The notes below the pieces were generated by a model. It saw only the letters and a list, made by a program, of their open reading frames with translations. It did no database searches and was not told the DNA's origin. A stretch of DNA of 20,769 bases from IMG/VR virus record IMGVR_UViG_3300037507_003673, positions 1-20,769 of that record. One strand, 5' to 3'. Every line of letters starts with the position of its first letter. Position 1 is the stretch's first letter. Below are positions 6,924 to 14,166 of this stretch, one piece after another. Position numbers and translations under genes: made by a program. This stretch comes from a virus.

Positions 6924-7198
6924 GCGCCTGGATCTTCGGCGAGGAGCGCATCCCGCAGAACGACCGGCACGTCTTGGTCACCGATGGGCGGCAATGCTTT
7001 GTCGCCTACTTCGAGGATGTCGATTGGGTGGACGCGCAGACGTTCGATCCCTTTGAGACGCGCATCACGCACTGGATGGAACTGCCGGAGTTGCCACGCC
7101 GCGAGCGCACCCCGCAGGAAGAAGCCGAGTGGGCTGCCGATAAGCGCGCGGAATACGAGGCCGACCGCTGCTGCGGACACCACTGGGGCAACTGCTAA
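6920..7198 (+). CDS. DUF551-like phage protein
   Basis: A 92-residue protein with the pattern of the DUF551 family: P-x(n)-VLVT, then 'CFVAYFEDVDW' and 'ITHWMELPELP'. The family is common in phage early regions and has no firmly known function. The C-terminal 35 residues are charged and end with a Cys/His-rich CCGHHWGNC, which could bind a metal. It starts by an ATGA overlap and ends just before the shared ribosome binding site of the methyltransferase and its alternative-frame partner. Confidence 0.75.
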   Translation: MSAWIFGEERIPQNDRHVLVTDGRQCFVAYFEDVDWVDAQTFDPFETRITHWMELPELPRRERTPQEEAEWAADKRAEYEADRCCGHHWGNC

Positions 7199-7209
7199 CG
7201 GAGAGACCG

Positions 7210-8226
7210 ATGTGGATACTACCTCGCCAATTACACACGTCTCCCTTTGTGCCGGATACGGAGGCATTGATCTCGGACTTAAACGAGCAATCCCAAGCCT
7301 GCGCACAATCGCTTTTAGTGAGATCGAAGCCTTCGCCTGCGCGAACTTGGTCTCTAAAATGGAAGCGGGACTCTTGGACCCAGCTCCTATCTGGACGGAT
7401 CTTAAAACCTTCCCATGGGCCGAGTTTCACGGCCGCGTGGACATCCTCAGCGGCGGCTACCCGTGCCAGCCATTCAGTGCCGCCGGCAAGCGCCTCGGCG
7501 CTGAAGACCCACGACACCTCTGGCCGTTTATCGCAGCCGGAATTGCTGCAATGCGACCAAGTGTCTGTTTCTTTGAAAACGTCGAGGGACATATCAGCCT
7601 TGGGCTTCCCGACGTGCTGCAAGACTTGGCAGGAATGGGTTACCGAACGACGTGGTGCGTATTCAGCGCGAGTGAAGTTGGCGCGACGCATCAAAGAAAG
7701 CGCATCTTCATCTTGGCCCACTGTCACAACGCAAGACAGCTACAACACGCCTTGCGCTTCTCAGATGGAGAGGAATACGCCTCCACTGGTAGTTGCGGTG
7801 CATGGCCCGCTCGCCCTGGCGAGCAGCAGTTTGCATGGGAGCCGCCAAGGGTTGTCGTGGGCAACGCCAGCAGCGCGAGACACGCAAGGACAGCGTGGAG
7901 CGGCGGCGAATGCGCGCAAGGGCAATCCATTGGATACGTTGCCGAATCAGATGGCGCAGTGGGGCACGCCAACAGCCCGCGACCACAAGAGCGGCCGAGG
8001 CAACGAGAAACGGGAATACAAGGAGCTGACGCCGATGGTGGAGAGGCAGCAGAGCGGCAAACTCAACCCTCGCTGGGTCGAGACGCTGATGGGTTTGCCC
8101 ATCGGATGGACGATGCCGTCCTGCACGTCTCCACAGACAATCGCACCGATGAGCTGCGACTCCTCGGCAATGGAGTTGTCTCGGCCACCGCAGAGCGAGC
8201 TTTCCGAGTTCTCGTTGGCGAGCTGA
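7210..8226 (+). CDS. Alternative-frame protein fully overlapping the C5 methyltransferase gene
   Basis: A 338-codon frame lies entirely over the methyltransferase gene, shifted by one frame, starting at ATG 7210 with a well-placed GGAGAG. Its product is Ser/Thr/Trp-rich. It has three W-x-T-x-x-x-x-D motifs (SWPTVTTQDS, SWATPAARDT, QWGTPTARDH) and near its end LNPRWVETLMGLPIGWT. The motifs LNP-x-WVE-x-LMG-x-P-x-GWT and W-x-TP-x-x-x-D recur, as I recall, in many phage proteins annotated near methyltransferases, so this frame looks selected rather than accidental. No function is known to me. It could also be a translation by-product of a conserved methyltransferase DNA sequence. Confidence 0.5.
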   Translation: MWILPRQLHTSPFVPDTEALISDLNEQSQACAQSLLVRSKPSPARTWSLKWKRDSWTQLLSGRILKPSHGPSFTAAWTSSAAATRASHSVPPASASALKTHDTSGRLSQPELLQCDQVSVSLKTSRDISALGFPTCCKTWQEWVTERRGAYSARVKLARRIKESASSSWPTVTTQDSYNTPCASQMERNTPPLVVAVHGPLALASSSLHGSRQGLSWATPAARDTQGQRGAAANARKGNPLDTLPNQMAQWGTPTARDHKSGRGNEKREYKELTPMVERQQSGKLNPRWVETLMGLPIGWTMPSCTSPQTIAPMSCDSSAMELSRPPQSELSEFSLAS

Positions 8227-8243
8227 TGGAGGAAGCACCATGA
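7212..8243 (+). CDS. C5 cytosine-specific DNA methyltransferase
   Basis: A 343-residue protein with the ordered motifs of C5 methyltransferases. Motif I is SLCAGYGGIDLGL (11-23, S-adenosylmethionine binding). Motif IV is GGYPCQPFSAAGKR (81-94, catalytic Cys85). Motif VI is FENV (121-124) and motif VIII is QRKRIFI (161-167). The C-terminal motif is LRLLGNGVV (315-323). The 170-300 stretch would be the target recognition region; the recognised sequence cannot be predicted. It would methylate cytosine in phage DNA and protect it from host restriction; no partner restriction enzyme is visible. The start is taken as GTG 7212, two bases inside an ATG that opens a second long frame, with GGAGAG at 7200-7205 serving either. 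The gene ends with an ATGA overlap. Confidence 0.85.
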   Translation: MDTTSPITHVSLCAGYGGIDLGLKRAIPSLRTIAFSEIEAFACANLVSKMEAGLLDPAPIWTDLKTFPWAEFHGRVDILSGGYPCQPFSAAGKRLGAEDPRHLWPFIAAGIAAMRPSVCFFENVEGHISLGLPDVLQDLAGMGYRTTWCVFSASEVGATHQRKRIFILAHCHNARQLQHALRFSDGEEYASTGSCGAWPARPGEQQFAWEPPRVVVGNASSARHARTAWSGGECAQGQSIGYVAESDGAVGHANSPRPQERPRQRETGIQGADADGGEAAERQTQPSLGRDADGFAHRMDDAVLHVSTDNRTDELRLLGNGVVSATAERAFRVLVGELMEEAP

Positions 8244-8395: not shown

Positions 8396-8574
8396 TGACC
8401 TTTAAGCAGTGGCGAGCGTGCGGACGTAAGCGGCGCTTTCACACCGCGGCAGAGGCGCGTCGTTGTCAGCCGATGATGACTGTCTACGAGTGCAAGTATT
8501 GCGGCCGCTACCACCTGACCAAGGGAATCGACTGGTGGGCCAAGCACATCCTGCAGCGGAGGTTGGCGGCTTGA
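8395..8574 (+). CDS. Small zinc-ribbon-like protein
   Basis: A 59-residue basic protein (MTFKQWRACGRKRRFHTAAEARRC... in part) with 'YECKYCGRYHLTK': Cys33, Cys36 and His40 probably bind zinc with an upstream Cys or His. Such small phage zinc proteins are frequent near replication genes, and DNA or RNA binding is likely. ATG 8395 in a TGATG junction is preferred to GTG 8392. Confidence 0.65.
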   Translation: MTFKQWRACGRKRRFHTAAEARRCQPMMTVYECKYCGRYHLTKGIDWWAKHILQRRLAA

Positions 8575-8846
8575 GGACGGCGCCTCTCCTCTGCGCTTGG
8601 CCGGTCGCCCACAATGAGTGGCGCATCCAGTCGCGCATCGGTGCGGCGTCCAAATACCTGCGCTCCGGGCTGAAGCTGACCCGCTGCGCCTGGGCAATTT
8701 GTGGCGGGCATCTGGTCATCTTCAAGGTCATCGGCGGCAAGGCTGACGCTCAGAGGGTGATGGCGAATGTGACCCGCTATCTAAGGGAGAATTTTACAGA
8801 GAGGGCAATTCACGAAATGCCCCGCAGAGGCACTTTGATTTCATGA
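8571..8846 (+). CDS. Hypothetical protein
   Basis: A 91-residue protein with a TTG start in a TTGA overlap with the previous stop. The frame is open further upstream but there it would overlap the zinc-ribbon gene. It is basic, with a hydrophobic patch (CAWAICGGHLVIFKVIGG) between helical segments. It ends by an ATGA overlap. No family is recognised. Confidence 0.55.
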   Translation: MRTAPLLCAWPVAHNEWRIQSRIGAASKYLRSGLKLTRCAWAICGGHLVIFKVIGGKADAQRVMANVTRYLRENFTERAIHEMPRRGTLIS

Positions 8847-9445
8847 CCATGGCAAGACCGCGGACGACATCTAAACCCAAAAAGAAAGCAGCCAAGCCGG
8901 AGCCAGAGATTGCTCCGGTGCATGTGGGCCGCTCAACCGGCCTCGAGGTGCCCGAAGCGAAGGCTGAGAAGATCGCCGCAGCGCATATGGCCGGCATGTC
9001 GATCCGTGAGATGTGCCGCGCGTTCAACACGTCGTACCACACGATCATGGCGCTGATACGAAACAGGCCGGAGCTGTTGGAACGCGCGCGGGAAATTACG
9101 TCGAAGAACTGGAAGACCTTGGCCGCCGTTGGGACCGCGGAACTCTTTGAGAGGATACCCGACATGAAGAGTCACGAACTCACTATCATGTCTGCGGTTG
9201 CAACAGAGAAATCTGAACTGCTGGCCGGTGGCGCAACGCAGCGTGTGGAGCATGTGATGGCTCCGGCGGCTGACTCTTGGAATAGCTTCGTGCGCGGGCT
9301 GAGGAGCGAGCAGGTGATCGATGTGACGGCGGAACGGGTGGATTTACCGGTCGGCTCAGAAGGACGCGAGGCGCAAAAGGCCGCTGCACTGCCGGCTGCT
9401 GCTATTGAGATTGAGACTGGCTCTACAGAGGAAAGCGAGAGATGA
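8843..9445 (+). CDS. HTH DNA-binding protein (possible small terminase or regulator)
   Basis: A 200-residue protein with a basic Pro/Lys-rich N-terminus (1-25) and a homeodomain-like helix-turn-helix at about 40-75 (KAEKIAAAHMAGMSIREMCRAFNTSYHTIMALIRNRPE cut here to its core, GMSIREMCRAFNTSYHTI). A helical region with 'ATEKSELLAGGATQRVEHV' follows. This arrangement of HTH, helical middle and variable tail is found in small terminase subunits and in phage regulators. It lies some 8 kb from the large terminase gene, so a regulatory or replication role is equally possible. ATGA overlaps link it on both sides. Confidence 0.6.
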   Translation: MTMARPRTTSKPKKKAAKPEPEIAPVHVGRSTGLEVPEAKAEKIAAAHMAGMSIREMCRAFNTSYHTIMALIRNRPELLERAREITSKNWKTLAAVGTAELFERIPDMKSHELTIMSAVATEKSELLAGGATQRVEHVMAPAADSWNSFVRGLRSEQVIDVTAERVDLPVGSEGREAQKAAALPAAAIEIETGSTEESER

Positions 9446-9597
9446 GCCGCAAACCGACCAAGTCGTTAATGCGACAACAGAGTAGAGCTGCTGCACATGA
9501 GAGTTATTGGATTGAGTTATGCAGGGGTGGAGGGGGTCTGTCGTTATCATTTTCTCTAATACCCCCGACCGCTTGGACCTCCCGAAATTTTTTATAA
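9442..9597 (+). CDS. Doubtful small gene in a structured region
   Basis: An ATG overlapping the previous stop (ATGA) opens 51 codons, MSRKPTKSLMRQQSRAAAHES and on. The junction type and an opening similar to the basic gene at 6634 are in favour. The second half coincides with G-run and C-run repeats and a T tract that look non-coding, so the frame may be decayed or accidental. Confidence 0.3.
   Translation: MSRKPTKSLMRQQSRAAAHESYWIELCRGGGGLSLSFSLIPPTAWTSRNFL
9529..9593 (+). terminator. Possible attenuator or terminator structure
   Basis: GGGGGT (9532-9537) can pair with ACCCCC (9561-9566), and GGAGG (9529-9533) alternatively with CCTCC (9578-9582). ATTTTTTAT follows at 9586-9594. Two mutually exclusive pairings before a T tract suggest an attenuator, but loops are long and stability cannot be judged by eye. 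Confidence 0.3.
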
Positions 9598-9606
9598 AAA
9601 CACTTT

Positions 9607-10056
9607 ATGATCAAGCACATCCTATCCGCCGCCAAGTCAACCCTCAGCCAACCCATTAGTCAACCCGCCGCGGAACCCGCCAAGCCAATCCCCTCGCCTG
9701 CCGCAGAACCAGTCCCGGCGCCCAAGCCGGAAGCCATCCTCAAGTCCACCCCAAAGACCGCCAAAGAACTGGCCGTTGAAACCGCCGCCCAGATCGGCTA
9801 CAGCGCGGGCGATGTGGTCACCGCGGTGATCTGCCGCCATCAGCGCGCCCGTCACCCGCGCATGCTCTTCGTTGAGGTGCCCGACTGGTCGGAGCCGGTG
9901 GTGTGCTATGTGAAGGATGCCGCGAGCTGGCAGCCGGTCAATCCGCCCTACGACCGCATCAAGGCGCGCTGGTCAGGGATGGCAGACGTGGAAGGCCGGC
10001 TGATCTTTGAGAGCAGCGACGAGTGCAAGAAGAGCCGACTGATCCGCCGGAAATGA
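9607..10056 (+). CDS. Hypothetical protein with Pro/Ala-rich linker
   Basis: A 149-residue protein. After a short basic start (MIKHILSAAKSTL) comes a Pro/Ala/Glu-rich unfolded linker (about 15-50). The rest is a compact C-terminal domain of about 95 residues with alternating strands (DVVTAVICRHQ, RMLFVEVPDW, EPVVCYVKDA). The start has an A/T-rich leader (AACACTTT) and no Shine-Dalgarno sequence. It is translationally coupled (ATGA) to the replication initiator. No family is recognised; the context suggests replication. Confidence 0.65.
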   Translation: MIKHILSAAKSTLSQPISQPAAEPAKPIPSPAAEPVPAPKPEAILKSTPKTAKELAVETAAQIGYSAGDVVTAVICRHQRARHPRMLFVEVPDWSEPVVCYVKDAASWQPVNPPYDRIKARWSGMADVEGRLIFESSDECKKSRLIRRK

Positions 10057-10826
10057 GCGTAGCCGCCACCAACTACGTCTGGACGAAGTCGCCCGCGGAA
10101 GGAGCCGACCGGCTTGTCCTTTTGGCCTTGGCAGACTTCGCCGATGAGATGGGCAACTGCTTCGGTTCCTGGGGCAAGCTGTGCGAGAAGACACGGCTGG
10201 CTCGGGCCACGGTTGCTCGTTGTCTTCGCCGCCTGCAGAAGGCTGGCCAACTGGTGATGGTTGAGAAGGGCCACCGGAAGATCGCCGGCAACGGCTCGGA
10301 GGCCAGCATTTGGATCATTCCGGGTGTGTCCGAGGAGATGGGTCTCACGATGAGACCGGTCTCAGAAAGAGACCCAAGTAGTGTCAGAATGAGACCCAAG
10401 TGGTGTCAGGATGAGACCCCAACTATAAGTAACATAAGGAACGCTGACAGTGCGGTCGCTCCGGCTGCTTCGCAGCCTTCGCTCCCTTCATCTTCCGCTC
10501 CCCTTAATTCCGCCCCCAAAAAACGCAAACCCCGCAAAGCGGCGCCGCACCCTACCCTGCGCCCCGACTTGGACGACCAGTCTTGGTTTCGCCACCTTTC
10601 CGAGCTTCCCGAGTTCGCCCACGCCAAGATCGCCGAGGAATACGGCCGCTGTCGGACGTGGTGCCGCAACAAGGGTGTCGGCGCGGTCAGCCGCCGCCGG
10701 TTCATCAATTGGCTGTCCAAGGTCGAGGCGCCGCTCACCGAGCCGACCCCGCAGGTGGTCCGCCGGTCGGCTGCCGATGACTACTATGCGCGCATCGAGG
10801 CGCGCGTGGGAGGGATCAAAGCGTGA
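10053..10826 (+). CDS. Replication initiator, lambda O-like (winged helix), with iterons in its gene
   Basis: A 257-residue protein. Residues 7-75 have the winged-helix pattern of phage O-type initiators: 'VWTKSPAEGADRLVLLALADFA', then 'SWGKLCEKTRLARATVARCLRRLQKAGQL'. A low-complexity linker (about 100-165, Ser/Pro/Ala) separates it from a C-terminal domain of about 90 residues rich in Arg and Trp (YGRCRTWCRNKGVG). In lambda, O binds iterons inside its own gene, exactly in such a linker, and recruits the helicase. Here 22-bp repeats lie at the same relative place. A DnaB-type helicase is encoded downstream. ATG 10053 overlaps the previous stop, and the end overlaps the next start (GTGA). Confidence 0.7.
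   Translation: MSVAATNYVWTKSPAEGADRLVLLALADFADEMGNCFGSWGKLCEKTRLARATVARCLRRLQKAGQLVMVEKGHRKIAGNGSEASIWIIPGVSEEMGLTMRPVSERDPSSVRMRPKWCQDETPTISNIRNADSAVAPAASQPSLPSSSAPLNSAPKKRKPRKAAPHPTLRPDLDDQSWFRHLSELPEFAHAKIAEEYGRCRTWCRNKGVGAVSRRRFINWLSKVEAPLTEPTPQVVRRSAADDYYARIEARVGGIKA
10341..10440. other. Putative phage replication origin (iterons plus A/T-rich stretch)
   Basis: GAGACC or its complement GGTCTC occurs at 10341, 10352, 10358, 10369, 10391 and 10413. The boxes at 10352 and 10358 join into the 12-bp palindrome GAGACCGGTCTC. The units 10369-10390 and 10391-10412 are 22 bp long, two helical turns, and differ at only two positions; a third begins at 10413. An A/T-rich stretch (10420-10440, AACTATAAGTAACATAAGG) follows. 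Because 22 is not a multiple of three, the copies are translated in different frames, so the repeat is conserved as DNA, not as protein. Confidence 0.65.
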
Positions 10827-11323
10827 GCACCCTCTTCGCCCTCGAAAACGGCATCCACGCCCCGATCACCGGCGGTGCCGTGCTCTCGGCCTGCCGCAAG
10901 GGAGAGTTGTCCGAATCGCTTTTCATTGTCGGCGCCCAAGCCTGCAACTGGGAAATCTTCACGCCCTTCGGTCACGCCCAGACGACCGACGTGATGCTCA
11001 CCCGCTCCGGCGTTCGCCCTATCGGCGTCCAAGTTAAGACCGCCACCCTAGACCGCGGCGCCTACCACGTCTCCGTCAAGCGCGCCACCGGCGGACGCAA
11101 TGCGCGCCCCTATCAAGTCCACGACTTTGACGTTCTGGCCGCCTACCTGCCCGACCTCAACCAATTCGTTTTCTGGACATTTGACGACATCAGCAACCGC
11201 GTCAGCGTCCGCTACGACCCCAACAAGCACCGGAGACCCGGTAACTGGGAACTGCTCAACGATGTCGCGGAATCGCTAACAAATTCTGGGTCTGGGACAG
11301 CCGTTGTCCCACCCCATCCTTGA
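10823..11323 (+). CDS. PD-(D/E)XK nuclease-like protein
   Basis: A 166-residue protein with the pattern of the PDDEXK_5-like group. 'KGELSESLFIVGAQACNWEIFTPFG' (Glu28, Glu31) is followed by 'TTDVML' (Asp56) and 'IGVQVKTATLDRG' (Gln70, Lys72), the D...(E/Q)xK core of restriction-like endonucleases. A conserved-looking 'YQVHDFDVLAAYLPDLNQFVFW' follows. Gln instead of Glu in the QxK motif is common in this group. The GTG start overlaps the initiator stop. A role in DNA cleavage or branch processing during replication is likely but not shown. Confidence 0.7.
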   Translation: MSTLFALENGIHAPITGGAVLSACRKGELSESLFIVGAQACNWEIFTPFGHAQTTDVMLTRSGVRPIGVQVKTATLDRGAYHVSVKRATGGRNARPYQVHDFDVLAAYLPDLNQFVFWTFDDISNRVSVRYDPNKHRRPGNWELLNDVAESLTNSGSGTAVVPPHP

Positions 11324-11339
11324 TACTCCGTAGATATTT

Positions 11340-11516
11340 ATGAAAACCGCCAAAGGCACCAAGAAAAAGGCGAGCGCCCCCAAGGCGCCGAAAACCGTCT
11401 ACAACATCAACGTCGAATACGTCGAAGCCATCGCCGACGAAAGCATCGCCACCATCATGGCTTTGCGCGCCCTCGTCCGCCAACTCGCCACCGAGCTGCA
11501 GGAGGCCCGCAAATGA
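11340..11516 (+). CDS. Small hypothetical protein with basic N-terminus
   Basis: A 58-residue protein: a Lys/Ala/Pro-rich start (MKTAKGTKKKASAPKAPK) and a helical rest (IADESIATIMALRALVRQLATELQEARK). The start follows an A/T-rich leader (TAGATATTT) with no Shine-Dalgarno sequence, 16 bp after the previous gene. It is coupled to the next gene by ATGA. No family is recognised. Confidence 0.6.
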   Translation: MKTAKGTKKKASAPKAPKTVYNINVEYVEAIADESIATIMALRALVRQLATELQEARK

Positions 11517-12771: not shown

Positions 12772-14166
12772 ATGATCACACCACACGACGCAAAGACCGA
12801 AGCCTACGTCCTCGGCGCGCTGATGAACCACGGCGACCTGCTCGCCGAGTTGCCCGAGCTGACCGACGAATACTTTTTCCGCCCCGACCATAAGACTGTC
12901 TTCAGCGCGATCAGCGAGATTGTCGTCGATGGCGGCACACCGGACCTCATCCAAGTTACCCGCCTGCTGGAAGCGCGCAAGGAACTCGTCAAAGTGGGCG
13001 GTCCCGGAGCCGTCACCGAGATGATCGGCCAAGCGCTCACCCGCAACATTGACTACCAGCTCGGCATCCTGCGCGACTACGCGGCCCGCCGGAAGATCAT
13101 CACCGCCGCCGACCGGATGAAGGCCGCCGCCATGGACACGACCCAGGATGCGGACGAGGCGCTTGCCACCGCCGGCACTGCGGTCCTCGACATCGACCTC
13201 GCCGGTAAGTCCGACACCATCCAGCCCGCCAGCGCGATGATGCACGGCGCCCTCGCCGAGTTGCACCGCAGCGTGGCCGAGCGCGGCAAGCCCCGCGGCA
13301 TCGTCACCGGCTACAAATCTTTCGACCTCTGGACCGGCGGACTGCGCGAAGGTCAGTTCGTTTTGGTCGCCGCTCGTCCTGCCATGGGTAAGAGCGCCTT
13401 GCTCGTCAACATCGCTGACCGACTTGTTGCCCGCGGCATTCCGGTGCTGCTGTTCTCCCTCGAAATGCTGAAGCTGGAGCTGATCCAGCGCATCATCTGC
13501 GCGCGGGCATCCTTTGACAGCACCCGCCTCAAGCTCGGCGACATTGAGCACGACGAGATGCGCCGCCTTGAGCATGAGCACATGCGCCTCGCCGGCCAGC
13601 CGCTCTTCATCGATGACCAGGGCGGTCTTTCCATCATGGATGTCCGCGCGCGTGCGCGCCGCGCCGTCAAGAAGCACGGCGTGAAAGTCGTCCTCGTTGA
13701 CTACCTGCAGCTTCTCTCCGCGAAGAACGCGCAGTCACGCGAGAATGAGGTCGGCTTCGTCTCCCGCGGCCTCAAGAGCATGGCCATGGAGCTGAAGGTT
13801 CCGGTGCTCGCCGCCGCCCAGCTCAACCGCAAAGCCGAAGAGCGCGGTGACAACCGCCCCAAGATGGCCGACCTCCGCGACTCCGGGCAGATCGAGGCGG
13901 ACGCCGACATCGTCACCCTGCTCTACCGCAAATCCTACTACGAGACCGAAAGCAATCCGCAGGACAGCCACGAAGCCGAGTGGACCGTAGCCAAGCACCG
14001 CGCCGGCCGCACCGGAGTCATCCCGCTTATGTGGCATCCGCCGTATACCCGATTTGACAGCGTCAGCGACCGATTCACAGACGAGCCAGACGTGCCGTGG
14101 GGCGAAGAGAAGGCGGCCGATCTGTTTCCGGTGCCGCACAAACTGATGGAGGTCATCAACGAATGA
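12772..14166 (+). CDS. dnaB: Replicative DNA helicase, DnaB family
   Basis: A 464-residue protein with the DnaB layout. An N-terminal helical domain (1-100, starting with the typical 'DAKTEAYVLGALMNHGDLL') is followed by a linker and a RecA-like C-terminal domain from about 175 ('GIVTGYKSFDLWTGGLREGQFVLVAA' region). The Walker A motif is ARPAMGKSA (Lys207), Walker B is VVLVDYLQLL (Asp310), and AAAQLNR (Gln350) and the 'LRDSGQIEADADIV' segment are canonical. It forms a hexamer that unwinds DNA at the fork. Encoding its own helicase frees the phage from the host DnaB; the O-like initiator at 10053 is its probable loader or partner. GGAGG at 12756-12760 precedes the ATG; the stop overlaps the nuclease gene by ATGA. 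Confidence 0.93.
   Translation: MITPHDAKTEAYVLGALMNHGDLLAELPELTDEYFFRPDHKTVFSAISEIVVDGGTPDLIQVTRLLEARKELVKVGGPGAVTEMIGQALTRNIDYQLGILRDYAARRKIITAADRMKAAAMDTTQDADEALATAGTAVLDIDLAGKSDTIQPASAMMHGALAELHRSVAERGKPRGIVTGYKSFDLWTGGLREGQFVLVAARPAMGKSALLVNIADRLVARGIPVLLFSLEMLKLELIQRIICARASFDSTRLKLGDIEHDEMRRLEHEHMRLAGQPLFIDDQGGLSIMDVRARARRAVKKHGVKVVLVDYLQLLSAKNAQSRENEVGFVSRGLKSMAMELKVPVLAAAQLNRKAEERGDNRPKMADLRDSGQIEADADIVTLLYRKSYYETESNPQDSHEAEWTVAKHRAGRTGVIPLMWHPPYTRFDSVSDRFTDEPDVPWGEEKAADLFPVPHKLMEVINE

Follow-up and report, generated by a model that had tools for sequence, protein, structure and literature searches.

The four 17-bp palindromes at 10341-10418 very probably form a phage replication origin that lies inside the gene of its own initiator and works like lambda ori. 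This reading of the window (the whole 20,769-bp stretch analysed, a virus fragment from IMG/VR) is drawn from sequence comparison and analogy. It relies on the conservation of the array at the DNA level, the joint change of palindrome and recognition helix, the exchange of protein modules among relatives and a positive control with lambda O. An earlier note on this DNA had proposed a lambda-like origin embedded in an O-like initiator gene, and the comparisons support that proposal.

The initiator gene and its palindromes

The window carries integrase, DnaB, Gp2.5-like SSB, exonuclease, RusA-like and terminase genes, which points to a temperate tailed phage. The O-like replication initiator gene spans 10053-10826 (+ strand; 257 aa from the ATG, a GTG at 10023 being a possible alternative start). 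Its product matches Pfam HTH_36 (E 2.4e-7) and the PHROG families 6643, 1032, 8540, 391 and 678, classed as replication initiation (O-like), with E down to 2.5e-14. Pfam Phage_rep_O (PF04492) gave no match with the window protein at E up to 1, while the control, lambda O, matches it at 5.7e-36; phrog_678 (O-like) is common to lambda O (1.7e-35) and the window protein (4.6e-6), over the N-terminal half. The window initiator is thus outside Phage_rep_O and inside a wider O-like profile group (phrog_678, 391, 8540). It has no Pfam match to RepA_N, and a sequence search of the PDB returned nothing significant.

In the AF2 model (mean pLDDT 65 overall, about 88 for the N-domain and about 81-92 over residues 1-70) residues 1-90 (10053-10322, +) form a predicted winged-helix DNA-binding domain with helices at 40-47 and 51-64, the latter being the predicted recognition helix (codons 10203-10244, +). 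Residues 95-168 (pLDDT <50) appear as an unstructured linker, followed at about residues 170-250 by a helical C-terminal domain (10545-10823, +), the presumed contact for helicase or loader by analogy with lambda O. Foldseek searches of the PDB with the N-domain gave weak matches to the N-terminal domains of plasmid Rep/initiator proteins (4pql, 5kbj and 4pt7, E 0.005-0.014), 5kbj being a Rep-DNA complex; MarR and Fur folds were found as well. The array occupies codons 97-122, at the start of the linker, i.e. between the winged-helix and C-terminal domains, where the earlier note had placed it.

All six GAGACC/GGTCTC boxes reported in that note were located, at 10341(-), 10352, 10358(-), 10369, 10391 and 10413, with spacings of 11, 6, 11, 22 and 22 bp. 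The whole 20.8-kb window holds 16 such boxes where 10.5 are expected, so that six within 78 bp is far beyond chance. A feature beyond the earlier description is that the boxes pair as the arms of four 17-bp inverted repeats, GGTCTCA-n3-TGAGACC, whose starts are 17, 22 and 22 bp apart: iteron 1 at 10341-10357 (GGTCTCACGATGAGACC), iteron 2 at 10358-10374 (GGTCTCAGAAAGAGACC), iteron 3 at 10380-10396 (AGTGTCAGAATGAGACC) and iteron 4 at 10402-10418 (GGTGTCAGGATGAGACC). The iterons are both palindromic and direct repeats. Iteron 1 has perfect 7-bp arms; in later copies GTGTCA replaces GTCTCA on the left or AGAGAC appears on the right, giving the half-sites GGTCTCA/GGTGTCA (left) and TGAGACC/AGAGACC (right). 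The codon frames at the starts of the four copies are 0, 2, 0 and 1, i.e. all three frames are used, as claimed for the 22-bp units, and the shifted units encode unlike peptides (MRPVSERDP, VRMRP, CQDETP). In nine related contigs (13-48 kb) the motif is confined to the equivalent place.

The A/T-rich stretch announced after the boxes is found at 10421-10441 (+; AACTATAAGTAACATAAGGAA), with 76% A+T and AAC at 10421, 10431 and 10440. This candidate unwinding element is the 20-mer with the lowest stability in the gene, but it ranks 37 of 20,749 in the window; that it is not the least stable DNA there counts against the origin reading, as does its length of about 20 bp, where lambda has 40. The GC skew, also named in the earlier note, gave a divided answer. 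In five related contigs (8500-11500 of the window; L375-L378) a sign change does occur near the array: some 0.8-1 kb upstream of it a weakly positive skew turns distinctly negative. Origins usually show a G-rich leading strand; the polarity here is opposite to that pattern, which weighs against the origin reading, and the observation is not decisive.

By analogy with lambda, each 17-bp palindrome would be occupied by two O-like subunits, which would contact it with the recognition helix (residues 51-64) of the winged-helix domain. The four resulting dimers, spaced 17-22 bp, would make up a compact nucleoprotein, bend the DNA and open the adjoining A-rich element at 10421-10441. Recruitment of the replicative helicase by the C-terminal domain would follow, and the origin would fire. 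The helicase is probably the phage's own DnaB-type protein (12772-14166, +; Pfam DnaB_C, E 1e-86; phrog_19), the presumed downstream partner of the initiator.

Conservation of the array and its co-change with the recognition helix

The claim that the boxes are kept as DNA was borne out by two comparisons. We permuted synonymous codons within each gene, with protein and codon usage unchanged, and scored how often the most frequent half-site occurred in 120 bp. The initiator gene of the window reached a count of 6 against a null maximum of 5 (500 of 500 shuffles beaten). Relatives carrying other palindromes (L089, L107, L106, L128, L090, L131-L135 and L019) also passed, and the positive control, lambda O with its annotated iterons, exceeded its own shuffles. 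Half-site recurrence in lambda P and nine other genes of the window was not above that of their shuffles. The signal was weaker or marginal in L104, L057 and L137 and not significant in L138 and L056; thus the test misses some arrays. A generic count of inverted repeats per gene, unlike half-site recurrence, did not separate initiators from controls.

Among 27 distinct genes of the window class (class A) the array shows a pairwise synonymous difference of 0.028 per codon, 6-9 times lower than the 0.155-0.25 upstream, while its amino-acid difference (0.075) is not reduced. Variable positions number 3 of 56 in the arms and 10 of 12 in the centres. With synonymous sites frozen, amino-acid change not lowered and arms varying less than centres, the array is, judged from these alignments, conserved as DNA, the dyad arms in particular.

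The earlier note had also proposed comparing the repeats among related phages; the arms proved conserved within the window class and their letters changed together with the helix. Classes were defined by palindrome from 51 close relatives in viral contigs and 80 sequences from a profile scan. GGTCTCA-n3-TGAGACC goes with the helix RLARATVARCLRRL, GGTC(T/C)A-n5-T(A/G)GACC with RLCRATVANSLKRL, GGTGCA-n5-TGCACC with RLARRTVADCLKRL, GGTGTCA-n3-TGACACC with (R/K)LS(K/R)STIARSL, and GGACAATTTGTCC with MTRRNIARCIDK. A 22-bp unit, GGT...ACC plus CAAGT, is common to the first three, whose differences are confined to the interior of the arms.

Exchanges of domains among relatives separate the possible causes. 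L005 and L006 (GGTGCA-n5-TGCACC) and L019 (GGACAATTTGTCC) share 95-98% of the C-domain of the window protein but carry different helices and palindromes; in L007 an N-domain 100% identical to that of the window and the same array are combined with a C-domain only 32% identical. Thus, across the relatives compared, the letters of the palindrome change with the predicted recognition helix and not with the C-terminal domain, which is swapped independently of N-domain and iterons. Since the site lies within the linker codons, specificity domain and site could move as one cassette, joinable to different C-terminal domains. At least two unrelated types of C-terminal domain are joined to near-identical cassettes of N-domain and iterons.

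The association extends to 85 non-redundant phage or prophage initiators, bacterial genomes of several phyla included. Similarity of the sites, taken from repeated k-mers in the array, correlates with that of the recognition helix (r 0.52; partial Mantel 0.40, P=0.001) more than with that of the remaining N-domain (partial 0.14), in a test that does not fully remove shared ancestry. In a sliding window the co-variation peaks at the helix (alignment columns 44-61). Over unlike arrays the mode of the centre-to-centre spacing is 22 bp, with noisy detection. We claim no residue-to-base code, as automatic dyad alignment over all sites proved too noisy for one. A scan of bacterial genomes with L005 found no relatives; the same scan with an alignment found 14 distant ones, most with their own arrays. 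The iterons of L104-L117 (helix RLARSTVARSL) are asymmetric and combine a GTGTCA with a GGTCCA half-site within one copy; this class is perhaps in transition between specificities.

A recurrent AAC element after the arrays

AAC recurs every 9-13 bp after the arrays. In 33 initiators not selected for AAC, window relatives among them being non-independent, the summed chain length is 83 against 44 +/- 4 (maximum 58) in 400 codon shuffles, for a triplet chosen after inspection; the window taken singly gives P 0.08. Many lineages carry the unit as GAACCRTCA. A scan of viral contigs with GAACCRTCANNGAACCRTCA retrieved at least 120 stretches; the reversed motif, scanned over the entire collection, gave 21. 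Among the matches listed, 69 of 80 loci retrieved by the motif alone lie in sense within an O-like gene, with a minor circularity in that a few of the HMM training sequences themselves contained the motif; none of the 21 reversed-motif loci does. Nine of the 11 exceptions among the listed loci are cut off just upstream. The two exceptions with full context are L279 and L290 (motif loci L233-L312).

A significant half-site cluster stands directly upstream in 56 of the 65 distinct loci listed. These loci fall into 29 groups at 60% identity, with a median pairwise N-domain identity of 32%, and 25 of the 29 have a significant array. None of 369 genomes from a single bacterial class contained GAACCRTCA, which shows its rarity there only. 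We tentatively propose, at a little short of an even chance, that phages whose initiators are O-like HTH_36 proteins have in common a two-part origin in the initiator gene: palindromic iterons with letters set by the recognition helix (a readable code), and an AAC element, invariant and phased with the DNA helix, which in most lineages takes the form GAACCRTCA and would be a common site of strand opening or helicase loading, with a role like that of the DnaA-trio in bacterial origins.

Alternative readings and known systems

The array could instead be a set of operators, bound by the O-like protein or another regulator that controls transcription of the replication region, with no role as origin. 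Winged-helix proteins often bind palindromic operators, and the MarR and Fur folds found for the N-domain fit this. The array is nevertheless in the middle of a gene and not at a promoter, is unique within related genomes, is followed by an A-rich element of low stability and matches the anatomy of lambda ori, and PHROG classes the family as replication initiators; we consider operators unlikely. Still less probable is that the repeats serve mainly as a joint for domain swapping among phages. C-terminal domains are indeed exchanged near the 3' edge of the array, but dyad symmetry and palindromes that follow the recognition helix would be left unexplained, and the swapping is more plausibly a result of mosaicism.

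Two further readings have next to no probability. The iterons are coding, so a conserved linker peptide might have left the DNA repeat as a by-product; this is contradicted by the change of frame between 22-bp units with unlike peptides, by frozen synonymous sites with unreduced amino-acid change, and by the loss of the pattern on codon shuffling. GGTCTC/GAGACC might also be the target of host restriction or of the phage C5-cytosine methyltransferase, whose gene is in the window (6984-8243, +). Relatives of equal anatomy have unrelated letters (GGTGCA, GGTCTA, GGACAA) that track the initiator helix, which speaks strongly against such a target.

The origin reading agrees best with lambda, in which O dimers bind 19-bp inverted repeats within gene O and open the neighbouring A+T-rich region (PMC7466680, PMC5043065). 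As in lambda ori and its Stx phage relatives, the window has four inverted-repeat iterons of 17-19 bp, about 20-24 bp apart, in the middle of the initiator gene and followed by A-rich DNA; as in lambda O, an N-terminal DNA-binding half precedes a C-terminal recruitment half. It differs from lambda by its initiator (HTH_36, not Phage_rep_O), its palindrome, its phage-encoded DnaB helicase and an A-rich element of about 20 bp with AAC phasing, against 40 in lambda. The oriL of Bacillus phage SPP1, within gene 38, is likewise inside an initiator gene, with an A/T-rich unwinding element and a phage DnaB-type helicase (PMC6316719), but its sites have been described as direct repeats, and SPP1 has a second origin, oriR. 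In PLE RepA the N-domain co-varies with the origin and its semi-palindromic iterons while the C-domain is conserved, and specificity swaps are experimental (PMC8263062); the DNA-binding domain of the window initiator co-varies with its iterons in the same way, whereas the PLE origin is intergenic, with iterons of about 30 bp and an initiator of the RepA_N family.

Origins inside initiator genes (lambda, SPP1 oriL) and co-variation of N-domain and origin (PLE RepA) are thus already known. New are the HTH_36 origin class with its half-sites, the co-variation of helix and site throughout a family of embedded origins, and AAC/GAACCRTCA as a shared element; in the openly text-searchable literature, a part of the whole, we found no earlier description of this class. 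To our knowledge most phage origins are unmapped. If the rule holds, matched initiator-site pairs could be read from sequence alone, so that in a large group of temperate phages the origin could be located and the initiator classed by specificity; the rule also bears on cross-replication among co-resident phages or satellites. The natural variants (classes A-D, with shared C-domains) offer a ready set for studying how a winged-helix initiator reads iterons, and AAC/GAACCRTCA a concrete candidate opening site.

Two neighbouring genes gave minor observations. A same-strand open frame of 338 aa (7210-8226), with no assigned function and perhaps spurious, overlaps the C5-cytosine methyltransferase gene. 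A PD-(D/E)XK_5 endonuclease gene (10823-11323, +) overlaps the stop of the initiator gene and is possibly part of the replication module; L056 has a homologue at the equivalent place (2331-2804), though its initiator helix and C-domain differ.
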